Shown here one piece after another: positions 59,788 through 64,000 of a DNA stretch of 64,000 nt. Source of the stretch: Frankiales bacterium (GTDB lineage Bacteria > Actinomycetota > Actinomycetes > Mycobacteriales > Geodermatophilaceae); contig JAODNJ010000212.1 in NCBI GenBank assembly GCA_025465155.1, positions 62,001 to 126,000 of the forward strand, given 5' to 3'. Within the stretch, counting starts at the first letter, position 1. The number at the start of each line of letters is the position of its first letter. The notes under the pieces are model-generated. The model saw only the letters and a program-made list of their open reading frames with translations, was not told the DNA's origin and ran no database searches. Both the position numbers and the translations under genes were made by a program.

Positions 59788-60495
59788 GTGAGTTCCTCTG
59801 AGCCGACGCCCATCGAGAGTGTCAGGCGCACGCACGAAGCCTCGCGCGACCCTCGGGTCTACCGCACGCGGGCTAAGATCTTCAGCGCGGTCGAATTGCT
59901 GATCGCGCAGTCTCCAGAGAGCATCTCGGTGGCCGATATCGTGCGGCAGGCGGGCATCTCGAAGACATCGTTCTATACCCACTTCTCGAGCTTCGACGAT
60001 CTCGCCCTGCAGGTCGTCGAACGGGCGTACGAGCACCTGCGTGACATCAACCGGCGCCTCGCTGCGGCACCAGCATTCGATCCCGCCTCGGTCGTAAGGG
60101 AGTCGTATGAGCGGCTGATCCGGCACTACATCGAACATCGTACGTTCTACGTCGCCGTGCTGGCGCTTCCCCTTTCGCGAGAGGTGCATACCAACGCGGT
60201 TCGGGCGATGGCGGCCGATATCGAGCCGTGGATCGCCGGGCATCCGAATCTGCCGACGTCGATTCGGCCTCATCTGGCGGCGAGCCTCATTTCGAGCGCC
60301 GTCGTCGGGTTTCTCGACGAGTGGCTGGAGAGCGATTTCGAAGCCACCGCCGACGAGCTGCTCGAGCATCTGCTGCAGCTGCTGCCGGCGTGGTACACAG
60401 GACGCGACCACGCGACCGCGGCCGAGGAAACAAACACTGTCGGTGCCAGAGACGAAGCTGAGGCTGCGAACGGAGCCGAGGCTACGCCGCGCTGA
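59788..60495 (+). CDS. TetR/AcrR family regulator
   Basis: SVADIVRQAGISKTSFYTHFSSFDDLALQVVERAYEHL. Confidence 0.88.
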   Translation: MSSSEPTPIESVRRTHEASRDPRVYRTRAKIFSAVELLIAQSPESISVADIVRQAGISKTSFYTHFSSFDDLALQVVERAYEHLRDINRRLAAAPAFDPASVVRESYERLIRHYIEHRTFYVAVLALPLSREVHTNAVRAMAADIEPWIAGHPNLPTSIRPHLAASLISSAVVGFLDEWLESDFEATADELLEHLLQLLPAWYTGRDHATAAEETNTVGARDEAEAANGAEATPR

Positions 60496-61270
60496 TTCCG
60501 CCGTTCACGCTGATCGCCTGGCCCGTGAGCCGCCGAGCCGCGGGACTGGCCAGAAAGACCACCAGGTCGCCGAGATCGTTCGCATCGGGTACGCCCAGAT
60601 GCGCCTGTTCTGCGGCTTTGGCGAACAGTTTCGCGCTGAATCCGTCGCCGGTGATGCGAGCAGTGGATGCTGTGCCGTGCACCAGCGACGGGGTCAGTAC
60701 GTTCGCCCGAATGCCGTTTCGTTTTCCTTCGACTGCGATCGTACGGGTGAACATGATGATCGCAGCCTTACAGGCGCCGATGATCGTCTCGCCGGGCGTC
60801 GCTGTCTTGCCCGCGTCGGAGGCGACGGTGATGATCACCCCGCCGCGTCGTTGCGCCATGTGGGGCATGACCTCGCTCACCAGCTGCATCGGAGGCAGCA
60901 GCATCTCGTGCAGAATGCCGCCGATAGATTCAGTCGGAATATCGCGGAACAATTCCGGTCGGTTCTCTGCCACGGTCGACACCACCAGAATGTCGATGCC
61001 GCCGAGCAAGGCCTCGGCCTCGCGGGTGATGCGGGCGGCCTCTGCGGCGCTGGTGGCGTCGCCCTGAACGAAGTGCACCGTCGCGCCGGTCTGGGCCAGG
61101 CGCTCCCGGGCCTCTTCGCCGCGCTCGACGTTGCGGGCGACGATCACGATTCGGCGCACACCGCCGAGGGCGAGCTTTTCGGCCGAGGCGTAACCGATGC
61201 CCGCCGACCCGCCGACCACCAATGCGCCGCTGTCGGCGAGCGACTTCGGTTCGGGCAGGGGCTCGGTCAC
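60482..61270 (-). CDS. SDR-fold protein with non-canonical active site
   Basis: ALVVGGSAGIGYASAEKLAL; TVASDAGKTATPGETIIGACKAAIIMFTRTIAVEGKRNGIRANVLTPS; GTG overlaps ACAD stop. Confidence 0.88.
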   Translation of the reverse strand: MTEPLPEPKSLADSGALVVGGSAGIGYASAEKLALGGVRRIVIVARNVERGEEARERLAQTGATVHFVQGDATSAAEAARITREAEALLGGIDILVVSTVAENRPELFRDIPTESIGGILHEMLLPPMQLVSEVMPHMAQRRGGVIITVASDAGKTATPGETIIGACKAAIIMFTRTIAVEGKRNGIRANVLTPSLVHGTASTARITGDGFSAKLFAKAAEQAHLGVPDANDLGDLVVFLASPAARRLTGQAISVNGGISAA

Positions 61271-62421
61271 AGCGACACCGTCTTTCTGGCCAGGATCTCT
61301 TTGGAGATGATGCCCTTCTGAATCTCGGCCGTGCCGTCGGCCACGAGGTACGCCATCACGTCGCGAAAGCGCTGCTGAAGGGGGAACTCTGCCGAATACC
61401 CGAGGTTGCCGTGGATCTTCATCGAGGCCTCGATAGCGTCTTTCGCGACCACCGGAGCCCACCACTTGCTCATCGAGGCGAGAGAGGTGTGCGGACGGTC
61501 TTGCTGCCGTAGCCACAGTGCGCGGTAGCAGACCCAGCGTGCCCCCTCGATGTACGTCGCGTGTTCGGCCAGCGGAAACGAGACGCCCTGGTATTCGGAG
61601 ATCGGCTTGCCGAAGGTGGTGCGCTGGGTGGCGTACAGGGCGGCCTCTTCGAGGCTCTGCTCGGCTGCACCCAGACACATCAGGCCGATGGCCGCGCGGC
61701 TGAAGTCGAAGTGATTCATTGCCACCTGGAACCCGCGCCCCTCCTCGCCGATCAGGTGACTGTCGGGCACGAAGACGCCGTCGAGTGCGATCGACCCCCA
61801 GCCCAGCGGAAGACAGCCCATGCCGATCATGTGGCGAACGGTGACGCCGTCGGAAGCCAGGTCGACGACAAAACAGCTCACTCCGCTCGACCGAGTCGTC
61901 CCCTCTTCTCTGGCGTAGATGAGGGCGGCCGAAGCGCTCATGGCCCAGCTGATCGCTGTCTTCTCGCCGCTGAGCAGCCAGCCGCCGGTAACCCGCTTGG
62001 CCGTCGTTCGAAGTGCGCTCGCGTCAGAACCAGACTCCGGCTCGGTCAGCGCGATCGCGAGATTCTCTTCGCCGGCGATCATGGGGGGAAAATAGCGCTG
62101 CTGAACCTCTTCTGTGCCGTGCAGCAGCTGCGCCCCGACCAGTCCGACCTGAATGGGAGCGGAGGCGAGGTTCACATCGCCGTATGCCAGAGTCTCCGAA
62201 GCGATGCCGAGCAGCACGGGGTCGTCTTCTCCCGTTCCGCCGAACCGTTCGGGCAGACCGATGCCGAGTACACCGAGATCGCCGATCTTCTTCAGCAGCG
62301 CAAAAGGAAATTCCGAACTCGCAGATCGCGCGGTGTAGCCAGGCAGCAGCTCCTTTCGGGCGAAGGCAGAGAGGGTCTTCTGAAATTCCTCGTGGTCTTC
62401 AGAGAAGCTGAAATCGAGCAT
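61267..62421 (-). CDS. acyl-CoA dehydrogenase
   Basis: MLDFSFSEDHEEFQKTLSAFARKELLPGY; LTEPESGSDASALRTTAKRV; KIHGNLGYSAEFPLQQRFRDVMAYLVADGTAEIQKGIISKEI. Confidence 0.93.
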   Translation of the reverse strand: MLDFSFSEDHEEFQKTLSAFARKELLPGYTARSASSEFPFALLKKIGDLGVLGIGLPERFGGTGEDDPVLLGIASETLAYGDVNLASAPIQVGLVGAQLLHGTEEVQQRYFPPMIAGEENLAIALTEPESGSDASALRTTAKRVTGGWLLSGEKTAISWAMSASAALIYAREEGTTRSSGVSCFVVDLASDGVTVRHMIGMGCLPLGWGSIALDGVFVPDSHLIGEEGRGFQVAMNHFDFSRAAIGLMCLGAAEQSLEEAALYATQRTTFGKPISEYQGVSFPLAEHATYIEGARWVCYRALWLRQQDRPHTSLASMSKWWAPVVAKDAIEASMKIHGNLGYSAEFPLQQRFRDVMAYLVADGTAEIQKGIISKEILARKTVSL

Positions 62422-62480
62422 GTGTACGTGTCCCAACGAGTGACGGTCTGGCGCGCGACTCTGCGCGACCGGTCTATTAT

Positions 62481-62493
62481 CTGCTATTGGTAC
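62481..62493. promoter_or_regulatory. CTGCTATTGGTAC motif, exact reverse complement of 23281-23293
   Basis: Read directly in the divergent ACAD/SDR intergenic region. Confidence 0.55.
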
Positions 62494-62571
62494 AATATAC
62501 GAAAAGGTCAGGCCAAAACGGCGACCTTTTTGCTCGCCCGCCAGTGTCGCCGTTTCGAGAAGAGAGAACCG

Positions 62572-63354
62572 ATGCCCGTAGTACGCACGTACAAAGAAGC
62601 TGCAGTCGTCATAGCGGGGGGCTCGAGTGGTGTCGGTTTCGCCTCGGCAACAGGGTTCCTCGATGCCGGCGTGAGGCGGCTTGCTCTCTTGTCGCGCTCG
62701 CCAGAGCGGGGGCTAGCGGCACGCGACCGCCTGCGCGAACACTGCCCCGATGCCACGATCGAATTCGTTGCGGTCGACGTCGACGATCTCGACCAGGTCA
62801 CGCGAGCGATCGAGAAGGCGCACACCGCCCTCGGCTCGATCGACGTGCTGCTGAGCTCGGTGACGGCCCAATACCGGCCTGAGTTGCTGCACCGCATCGA
62901 TCCGAACGACATCACGCGCATCCTGACCGCCCAGGCGCTGCCGCCCATGTATCTGACGCGTACGGTGCTGCCGATCATGCAGGAGCAGGGCGGCGGCAGC
63001 ATCGTGCTGGTGGCCTCAGATGCCGCAAAGGTCGCTACACCGGGTGAATCGGTGCTGGGTGCGGCCATGGCCGCGATCGTGATGTTCTCGCGAACGGTGG
63101 CCATCGAGGCCAAGCGCAACGGAGTGCGCGTCAACGCGGTGACTCCCTCGCTCATCGCCGGCACCGCGACCGCCGAGCGTGTGCTCACCGACGGGTTCAG
63201 CAAGGCGCTCTTCGAGAAGGCGGCGAAGCTGGCTCATTTGGGCGTGGCAGAGGCCGAAGACCTCGCGGCGCTCATCGTCTTTCTCGGCGGGCCGGCCGCG
63301 GCTAAGATCACCGGGCAGGCCATCAGCGTGAACGGCGGAATCTCGGCGAGCTGA
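62572..63354 (+). CDS. SDR-fold protein lacking canonical catalytic Tyr and Lys
   Basis: VVIAGGSSGVGFASATGFLDAG; LVASDAAKVATPGESVLGAAMAAIVMFSRTVAIEAKRNGVRVNAVTPS. Confidence 0.88.
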   Translation: MPVVRTYKEAAVVIAGGSSGVGFASATGFLDAGVRRLALLSRSPERGLAARDRLREHCPDATIEFVAVDVDDLDQVTRAIEKAHTALGSIDVLLSSVTAQYRPELLHRIDPNDITRILTAQALPPMYLTRTVLPIMQEQGGGSIVLVASDAAKVATPGESVLGAAMAAIVMFSRTVAIEAKRNGVRVNAVTPSLIAGTATAERVLTDGFSKALFEKAAKLAHLGVAEAEDLAALIVFLGGPAAAKITGQAISVNGGISAS

Positions 63355-63357
63355 GTC

Positions 63358-64000
63358 TCACTCGTCGGCAGCGGCAGCGGCAGCGGTAGTGGCGGCGGCG
63401 GCGGCTCGTGCGTTCTCGGCGTTCCAGGCCGCAAAAGCGGTGCGGATGCCCGTGACGAGCGCCAGCGGCTGATCGAGCATGGGCGCATGACCCGCCTGCG
63501 GCAGCTCCACGAAGCTGGCTCCGGCGCGTTCGACGACGGCCCGCACCGACGCACTCACGACACCGTACTCCGCGCGAAAATACGCGAGCCGAGCATCCAT
63601 CGCGGTGAATTGTGCGGCTAGCAGGTGACCGCCGGCGAGAATGGTGCTGTCGAACTTCCAGCTCCAGCCCTCGGGCGTCTCGACCACTGATGCTGCGGCG
63701 ATGTAGTCGGAGACGAAAGCGAGCGACTCCTGTGCCGGCACGGGCCTGAAGCGGGCGATCGTCTCAGCCGCGCTCGGATAGAACTTTCTCTTCACCTCTG
63801 ACAGGCCCTGGGCTTCGACAGGAACCTTCGAGCCGAAGACGCCGATGGGCGAATCGATGACGATCGCCTCCCGCACGGGCGAGGGTGCCCGCTTAGCGAG
63901 CTCGAGAGTCACCAGGCCGCCCAGGCTGTGCCCGACGACGGTGTACCCGGGTTCGAACCCGTTTGCTTCGGCGACGGCGACGATCTCCTCTGCCCAGGTG
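63358..64000 (-). CDS. alpha/beta hydrolase, 5' end beyond window
   Basis: Frame open to window edge: WAEEIVAVAEANGFEPGYTVVGHSLGGLVTLELAKRAP...VETPEGWSWKFDSTI...FVELPQAGHAPMLDQPLALVTGI. Confidence 0.9.
   Translation of the reverse strand, partial: TWAEEIVAVAEANGFEPGYTVVGHSLGGLVTLELAKRAPSPVREAIVIDSPIGVFGSKVPVEAQGLSEVKRKFYPSAAETIARFRPVPAQESLAFVSDYIAAASVVETPEGWSWKFDSTILAGGHLLAAQFTAMDARLAYFRAEYGVVSASVRAVVERAGASFVELPQAGHAPMLDQPLALVTGIRTAFAAWNAENARAAAAATTAAAAAADE

Follow-up and report, generated by a model that had tools for sequence, protein, structure and literature searches.

A discrete, apparently undescribed clade of SDR proteins without the canonical catalytic tyrosine, encoded among genes of acyl-CoA metabolism

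SDRs normally need the tyrosine of the YxxxK motif for catalysis. Here, we describe a discrete and apparently undescribed clade of classical-length SDRs in which, as judged from sequence comparison, this tyrosine was lost in the common ancestor. Two members, termed SDR-A and SDR-B, are encoded close together in the stretch of DNA that was analysed (64,000 nucleotides, positions 1-64000, hereafter the window). Tentatively, we regard the clade as NADP(H)-binding SDRs whose substrates are acyl-CoA intermediates. The reacting bond is probably C=C and not C=O, and Ser, Asp and Glu would take the place of the tyrosine. Members on plasmids and genomes are annotated as 'SDR family oxidoreductase', a label that hides their different active site. 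Should their reaction prove to be new, one of the largest enzyme superfamilies would gain a chemistry. The features of the locus are as follows.

60482-61270, minus strand: SDR-A, GTG start at 61270, stop ending at 60482; Tyr-less with the Lys kept (VASDAGKTATPGETIIGACK), K branch, pLDDT 93
61267-62436 (longest ORF; probable ATG at 62421), minus strand: ACAD (acyl-CoA dehydrogenase), overlapping SDR-A, with Asp at the position of the usual catalytic Glu
62437-62571, no strand: divergent intergenic region with the palindrome TATTGGTACAATA (62485) and the element GGTCAGGCCAAAA (62506)
62572-63354, plus strand: SDR-B, Tyr-less with Met at the Lys position (VASDAAKVATPGESVLGAAM), M branch, BCR/HAD neighbour, pLDDT 93.2
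63358-64000, minus strand: 3' part of an alpha/beta hydrolase gene that runs past the window end as L092:7358-8371 and is followed by HGD-C, HGD-B and the ATPase activase

The coordinates, reading frames and motifs (IGACK, LGAAM) given in the original prediction all hold. SDR-A and the ACAD are encoded divergently from SDR-B. The two SDRs had been called paralogs, and they are indeed 49% identical. The proposed translational coupling of the ACAD to one SDR is borne out by a 4-nt overlap (GTGA, 61267-61270) between the start of SDR-A and the stop of the ACAD, and a -4 overlap between SDR and ACAD is also seen in relatives at loci L054 and L057.

At the YxxxK site SDR-A reads IGACK and SDR-B reads LGAAM. 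The serine and the glycine motifs (GGSSGVG and GGSAGIG) are kept in both proteins, as had been predicted, and the window SDRs match Pfam PF13561 and PF00106. Among the 84 aligned clade members the Tyr column holds Ile in 63, Leu in 19 and Ala and Val in one each, and Tyr in none. The catalytic Ser, an Asp directly after it (S+1) and a Glu at S+10 are each present in 84/84, and a Lys at S+4 is found in 83/84, the remaining sequence having Arg. This defines a clade motif, S-D-A-[AG]-[K/R]-x-x-T-P-G-E. The Glu of the PGE triplet had been suggested as an alternative catalytic residue, and with its invariance it stands as a candidate; it occupies the Lys-7 position, where FabI carries its Tyr. The NNAG motif is gone and variable Ser, Thr, Cys or Asn residues are found instead, while the helix-4 Asn is replaced by Gln, Leu or Met. 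A displaced Tyr that could serve as a replacement was sought in a 64-sequence alignment, and none there was invariant or nearly so. Nearly invariant in that alignment are G16, G20, G22, R42 at the end of strand 2, D69, T191-P192 and T198. These residues and the retained glycine motif and Ser lie where SDRs usually bind NADP(H), and cofactor binding is therefore a fair assumption. When, as a control, 68 other SDRs were placed on the same profile, Tyr was found in 39, a gap in nine, and several of the others resemble the Tyr-less DECR/PECR types. Judged by these alignments, the residue changes in SDR-A and SDR-B are a real loss of the Tyr, and in SDR-B of the Lys too, in keeping with the original prediction that one of the two had also lost the Lys. 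Decay to pseudogenes is ruled out by the strong conservation in about 90 members.

The clade was assembled from a scan of genome contigs with two peptide patterns, which returned 80 loci with relatives. The aligned set, at a threshold of at least 200 bits, consists of 82 relatives, loci from the genome search included, and the two window proteins; leaving aside pieces of the window genes, other SDRs scored far lower, mostly below 75 bits. Identity of the members to the window proteins falls to the low 40s. A pattern-free tblastn search of plasmids added seven distinct members, all with SDAxKxxTPGE and all without the Tyr. An artefact of the search patterns is ruled out, since the Tyr column lies outside them and the pattern-free plasmid search agrees. 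The Lys column is different in this respect: a Lys is found in 34 sequences, SDR-A and its branch, and a Met in SDR-B and 49 others, and these counts may be biased, as one of the two patterns covered this column and favoured K or M. On the tree K and M are separated by two changes, K comprising the SDR-A branch (33 rows) and one Sulfuricaulis sequence and M being found nearly everywhere else. The root of these trees is not secure, and with it the choice between an ancestral and a regained K.

A phylogeny had been proposed as a check on the IGACK/LGAAM clade. In quick trees with long branches, which do not resolve the sister group, the Tyr-less sequences form a single group on a long stem. DECR1 and PECR look-alikes from the same loci form a group of their own (97*) with the clade outside it, in a quick tree that likewise has long branches; membership of the clade in DECR/PECR is thus unsupported by the tree. 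A family-level search found a member in 2/115 genomes, the source genome and one other, and 397 genomes of the phylum held no further clade member and no HGD-B protein. Our literature searches returned no description of a Tyr-less SDR with an ACAD, nor of an aerobic BCR/HAD in Rhodococcus.

The neighbours over the whole clade are acyl-CoA ligases, ACADs, enoyl-CoA hydratases, CoA-transferase III and BCR/HAD genes. K-type loci carry ACAD, acyl-CoA ligase, LuxR regulator, enoyl-CoA hydratase and zinc dehydrogenase genes, the second-best model of the ligase being cyclohexanecarboxylate-CoA ligase. The best NCBIfam model of the window ACAD is cyclohexanecarboxyl-CoA dehydrogenase (TIGR03207), with 316 bits against a cut-off of 575. 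In the ACADs directly linked to SDR-A types, the window one included, Asp replaces the usual catalytic Glu (VADGTAEIQK), and the ACADs linked to M types read ADGTAQIQK. In just 16 of the K-type cases is the SDR immediately preceded by an ACAD in the same orientation. On a Mycobacterium paragordonae plasmid (L099:11072-12774) the position of the ACAD is taken by an alpha/beta hydrolase that the A-type SDR overlaps by 4 nt, and genes for a P450, a ferredoxin and an NDMA-dependent alcohol dehydrogenase lie nearby. A heteromeric complex of the two SDRs and the ACAD had also been put forward for checking. As an obligate complex this does not survive, since the A and B types are found apart, in separate genomes, and in the 34 searched genomes A-type and M-type SDRs are often found alone. 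Some of the clusters also encode a second, PECR-like family of Tyr-less SDRs (NMIADIWHGWP...HSAAAR; L016:1551-2432, L036:11940-12818, L046:9590-10507 and L081:7006-7935), sometimes with DECR1-like SDRs alongside (L028, L033, L055).

The M types have a different company. Excluding the window, HGD or activase genes are present within the locus in 28/49 M-type cases and in 0/33 K-type cases. Typical M-type loci encode two HGD-D subunits, a BadF-type activase and an acyl-CoA ligase, often together with a PaaX regulator and CoA-transferase III. By our own count, among genomes chosen for holding the SDR, a strong HGD-B match occurs in 19 of the 23 that have an M-type SDR; of the 11 with K-type SDRs only, one has such a match, and this is a fragment. 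On plasmids, HGD-B has five matches with 49% identity or more, each accompanied by the SDR, and two distant matches, which are not. Past the window end, the source genome continues with genes for alpha/beta hydrolase, HGD-C, HGD-B and activase, in this order, and about 1 kb separates SDR-B from the first HGD gene; these BCR/HAD genes were invisible to the original prediction, lying just outside the window. The region L092:8378-11703, about 1-4.3 kb past SDR-B, contains a complete-looking BCR/HAD pair and the start of a BadF-type activase gene. The HGD subunits retain their conserved Cys residues, and the set expected of BCR/HAD, two HGD-D subunits with Cys and a BadF-type activase, is present. 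HGD-B scores best against 2-hydroxyisocaproyl-CoA dehydratase (80 bits, versus 44 for 3-methylbenzoyl-CoA reductase), and HGD-C leans to benzoyl-CoA reductase C. The pair beside SDR-B may thus be either a dehydratase or an aryl-CoA reductase. Homologous BCR/HAD sets occur in many aerobic actinobacteria and some proteobacteria. ATP-driven steps of this kind are known mainly from anaerobes. With a BCR/HAD-type radical enzyme linked to the M branch in genera of aerobes (Rhodococcus, Gordonia, Nocardioides, Amycolatopsis, Sphingopyxis), it can be tested whether aerobes, too, carry out such a dehydration or reduction. Among the papers searched, none names both '2-hydroxyacyl-CoA dehydratase' and Rhodococcus.

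AlphaFold2 models of both proteins are confident SDR folds (pLDDT 93.0 for SDR-A and 93.2 for SDR-B). In Foldseek searches SDR-B found DHRS4 at rank 1, AerF at ranks 3 and 8, a nepetalactol cyclase at rank 14 and PECR at rank 49, and SDR-A found isopiperitenol dehydrogenase, with FabG and others nearby. By sequence and profile, the closest solved structures are mostly carbonyl/alcohol SDRs (FabG, DHRS4). Several known systems share single traits with the clade. The 2,4-dienoyl-CoA reductases and the peroxisomal trans-2-enoyl-CoA reductase act on acyl-CoA C=C bonds, and like the clade these DECR/PECR proteins have an SDR fold without the canonical Tyr, with bacterial look-alikes in the same gene clusters. 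However, they carry motifs of their own (HSGAAR and VPSAMAK types), are separate on the tree and do not have SDAxKxxTPGE. AerF, a top structure match of SDR-B, has both Y and K replaced, by K and N (KSGVVN in the PDB sequence), but it is only about 26% identical, uses a secondary-metabolite substrate without CoA and has neither the Asp at S+1 nor the PGE Glu. BacG is a conjugate-reducing SDR alongside AerF. FabI has a phenolic Tyr at Lys-7, where the clade has an acidic residue; FabI is absent from the close matches, and with Glu at Lys-7 in 84/84 the clade does not show the Y-x6-K pattern. SimC7 keeps the Ser, has Ile for the Tyr and has lost the Lys (PMC5039031), but it is a polyketide ketoreductase with a special phenolic substrate, His for the Lys and another motif. 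BadH and MrcD resemble the window set in being SDRs within ligase-ACAD-hydratase clusters of alicyclic acid pathways (PMC4109377). In contrast to them the window SDRs are missing the Tyr, and the BadH model (TIGR03206) gives 108 bits against a cut-off of 431.

From the residues, the clade, the gene neighbourhoods and the fold prediction we infer cofactor binding, an acyl-CoA substrate and a reaction, as follows. SDR-A and SDR-B would bind NADP(H) and use acyl-CoA intermediates of a CoA-dependent degradation pathway, probably of an alicyclic or aromatic carboxylate. The gene company is what suggests CoA thioesters as substrates, and the loss of the Tyr suggests that these enzymes are not chiefly concerned with protonating a carbonyl oxygen, as SDRs usually do. 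The most likely chemistry would be hydride transfer to or from carbon of a thioester-conjugated C=C, that is, reduction or oxidation of an enoyl- or dienoyl-CoA. The thioester enolate might be handled by the Ser with the invariant Asp and/or Glu, and a phenolic acid for a carbonyl oxygen would be unneeded at C=C. SDR-B might act at a step around the BCR/HAD-type radical dehydratase or reductase, and SDR-A at a step after the alicyclic-type ACAD. The DECR/PECR and AerF-type precedents suggest such a division of labour, with hydride transfer at a conjugated C=C, although AerF and PECR entered our analysis as structure and sequence matches alone.

Several observations argue for such C=C chemistry: the Tyr is absent and Ser, Asp and Glu are invariant in 84/84, with seven independent members in agreement; the clade is one group on a long stem, with conserved cofactor-site residues including R42 and confident SDR folds; its neighbours belong to CoA metabolism and the M types are associated with HGD and activase genes; SDR-B has AerF, whose PDB sequence is without the Tyr and Lys, and PECR as structure neighbours; and Tyr-less SDRs of the enoyl-CoA reductase-like DECR/PECR type occur in the same clusters. 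These same DECR/PECR-like proteins also speak against it, as they could already perform C=C reduction. Moreover, the nearest solved structures are mostly carbonyl/alcohol SDRs, the clade stands apart from DECR/PECR, and nothing that we searched holds a known activity for any clade member. The Lys of YxxxK normally holds the nicotinamide ribose; its absence makes productive hydride transfer in SDR-B uncertain. The main rival is a non-redox isomerase, tautomerase, epimerase, hydratase or cyclase of acyl-CoAs on an SDR fold, with Asp or Glu as general base and NADP structural or transient, which we consider less likely. Three of four tetrad residues are lost in SDR-B, the Asp, the Lys at S+4 and the Glu are (nearly) invariant, an SDR-fold nepetalactol cyclase is among the structure neighbours of SDR-B, and BCR/HAD and ACAD enzymes would yield unsaturated products that may need double-bond shifts. 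Yet the strong conservation of the cofactor-site residues is what redox use would lead one to expect, and the clusters already contain crotonase-family proteins, the usual isomerases and hydratases. A further reading, which we consider rather unlikely, makes the clade a new Ser-Asp-Glu class of SDR enzymes. Their step on a cyclic acyl-CoA would not involve a carbonyl and might not be redox at all, and it would belong to an unrecognised catabolic pathway of aerobic actinobacteria and proteobacteria that has an ATP-dependent BCR/HAD radical enzyme at its centre.

It seems improbable to us that the clade consists of ordinary alcohol or ketone dehydrogenases for hydroxyacyl-CoAs, with the role of the Tyr taken over by some other residue or by the substrate. 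The BadH step would be in keeping with an SDR encoded next to a ligase, an ACAD and a hydratase, and the nearest solved sequences are of the FabG and sorbose reductase types. But BadH and MrcD-type pathways employ ordinary SDRs, and the low score of the BadH model points the same way. The precedent is SimC7, which reduces a ketone with Ser-Ile-His in place of Ser-Tyr-Lys but depends on a special phenolic substrate (PMC5039031). Least likely of the readings, and quite unlikely in itself, is that the proteins are non-catalytic partners, SDR-A stabilising the ACAD or channelling to it and SDR-B doing so for the BCR/HAD enzyme. The coupled translation of SDR-A and the ACAD would fit, as would the company of HGD genes in the M branch. 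However, the charged motif of the active-site helix is invariant over about 90 sequences and stays constant while the neighbour varies (ACAD, alpha/beta hydrolase, HGD). The original prediction had considered a binding or scaffold role; a pure scaffold is unlikely in view of the nearly invariant cofactor-site residues and new motif.

The source of the DNA calls for caution. The G+C content of the window is 65%, versus 72-75% in most other fetched pieces of the assembly (one has 67%), and HGD-B is 94% identical to its counterpart in a Subtercola MAG. The contig may be foreign (horizontally acquired) or mis-binned in its MAG, and for this reason the host should not be read from the assembly. The clade result is unaffected by possible mis-binning.

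Between the ACAD and SDR-B, at 62485-62518, lie the palindrome TATTGGTACAATA and the element GGTCAGGCCAAAA. A sigma-70 promoter scan of the region found none. The element GGTCAGGCCAAAA is present upstream of the ACAD in L057 too, and related TTTTGGTCTGACCA-like sequences recur at L048, L054, L057, L058, L077 and other loci; they are reminiscent of GntR/FadR operators.
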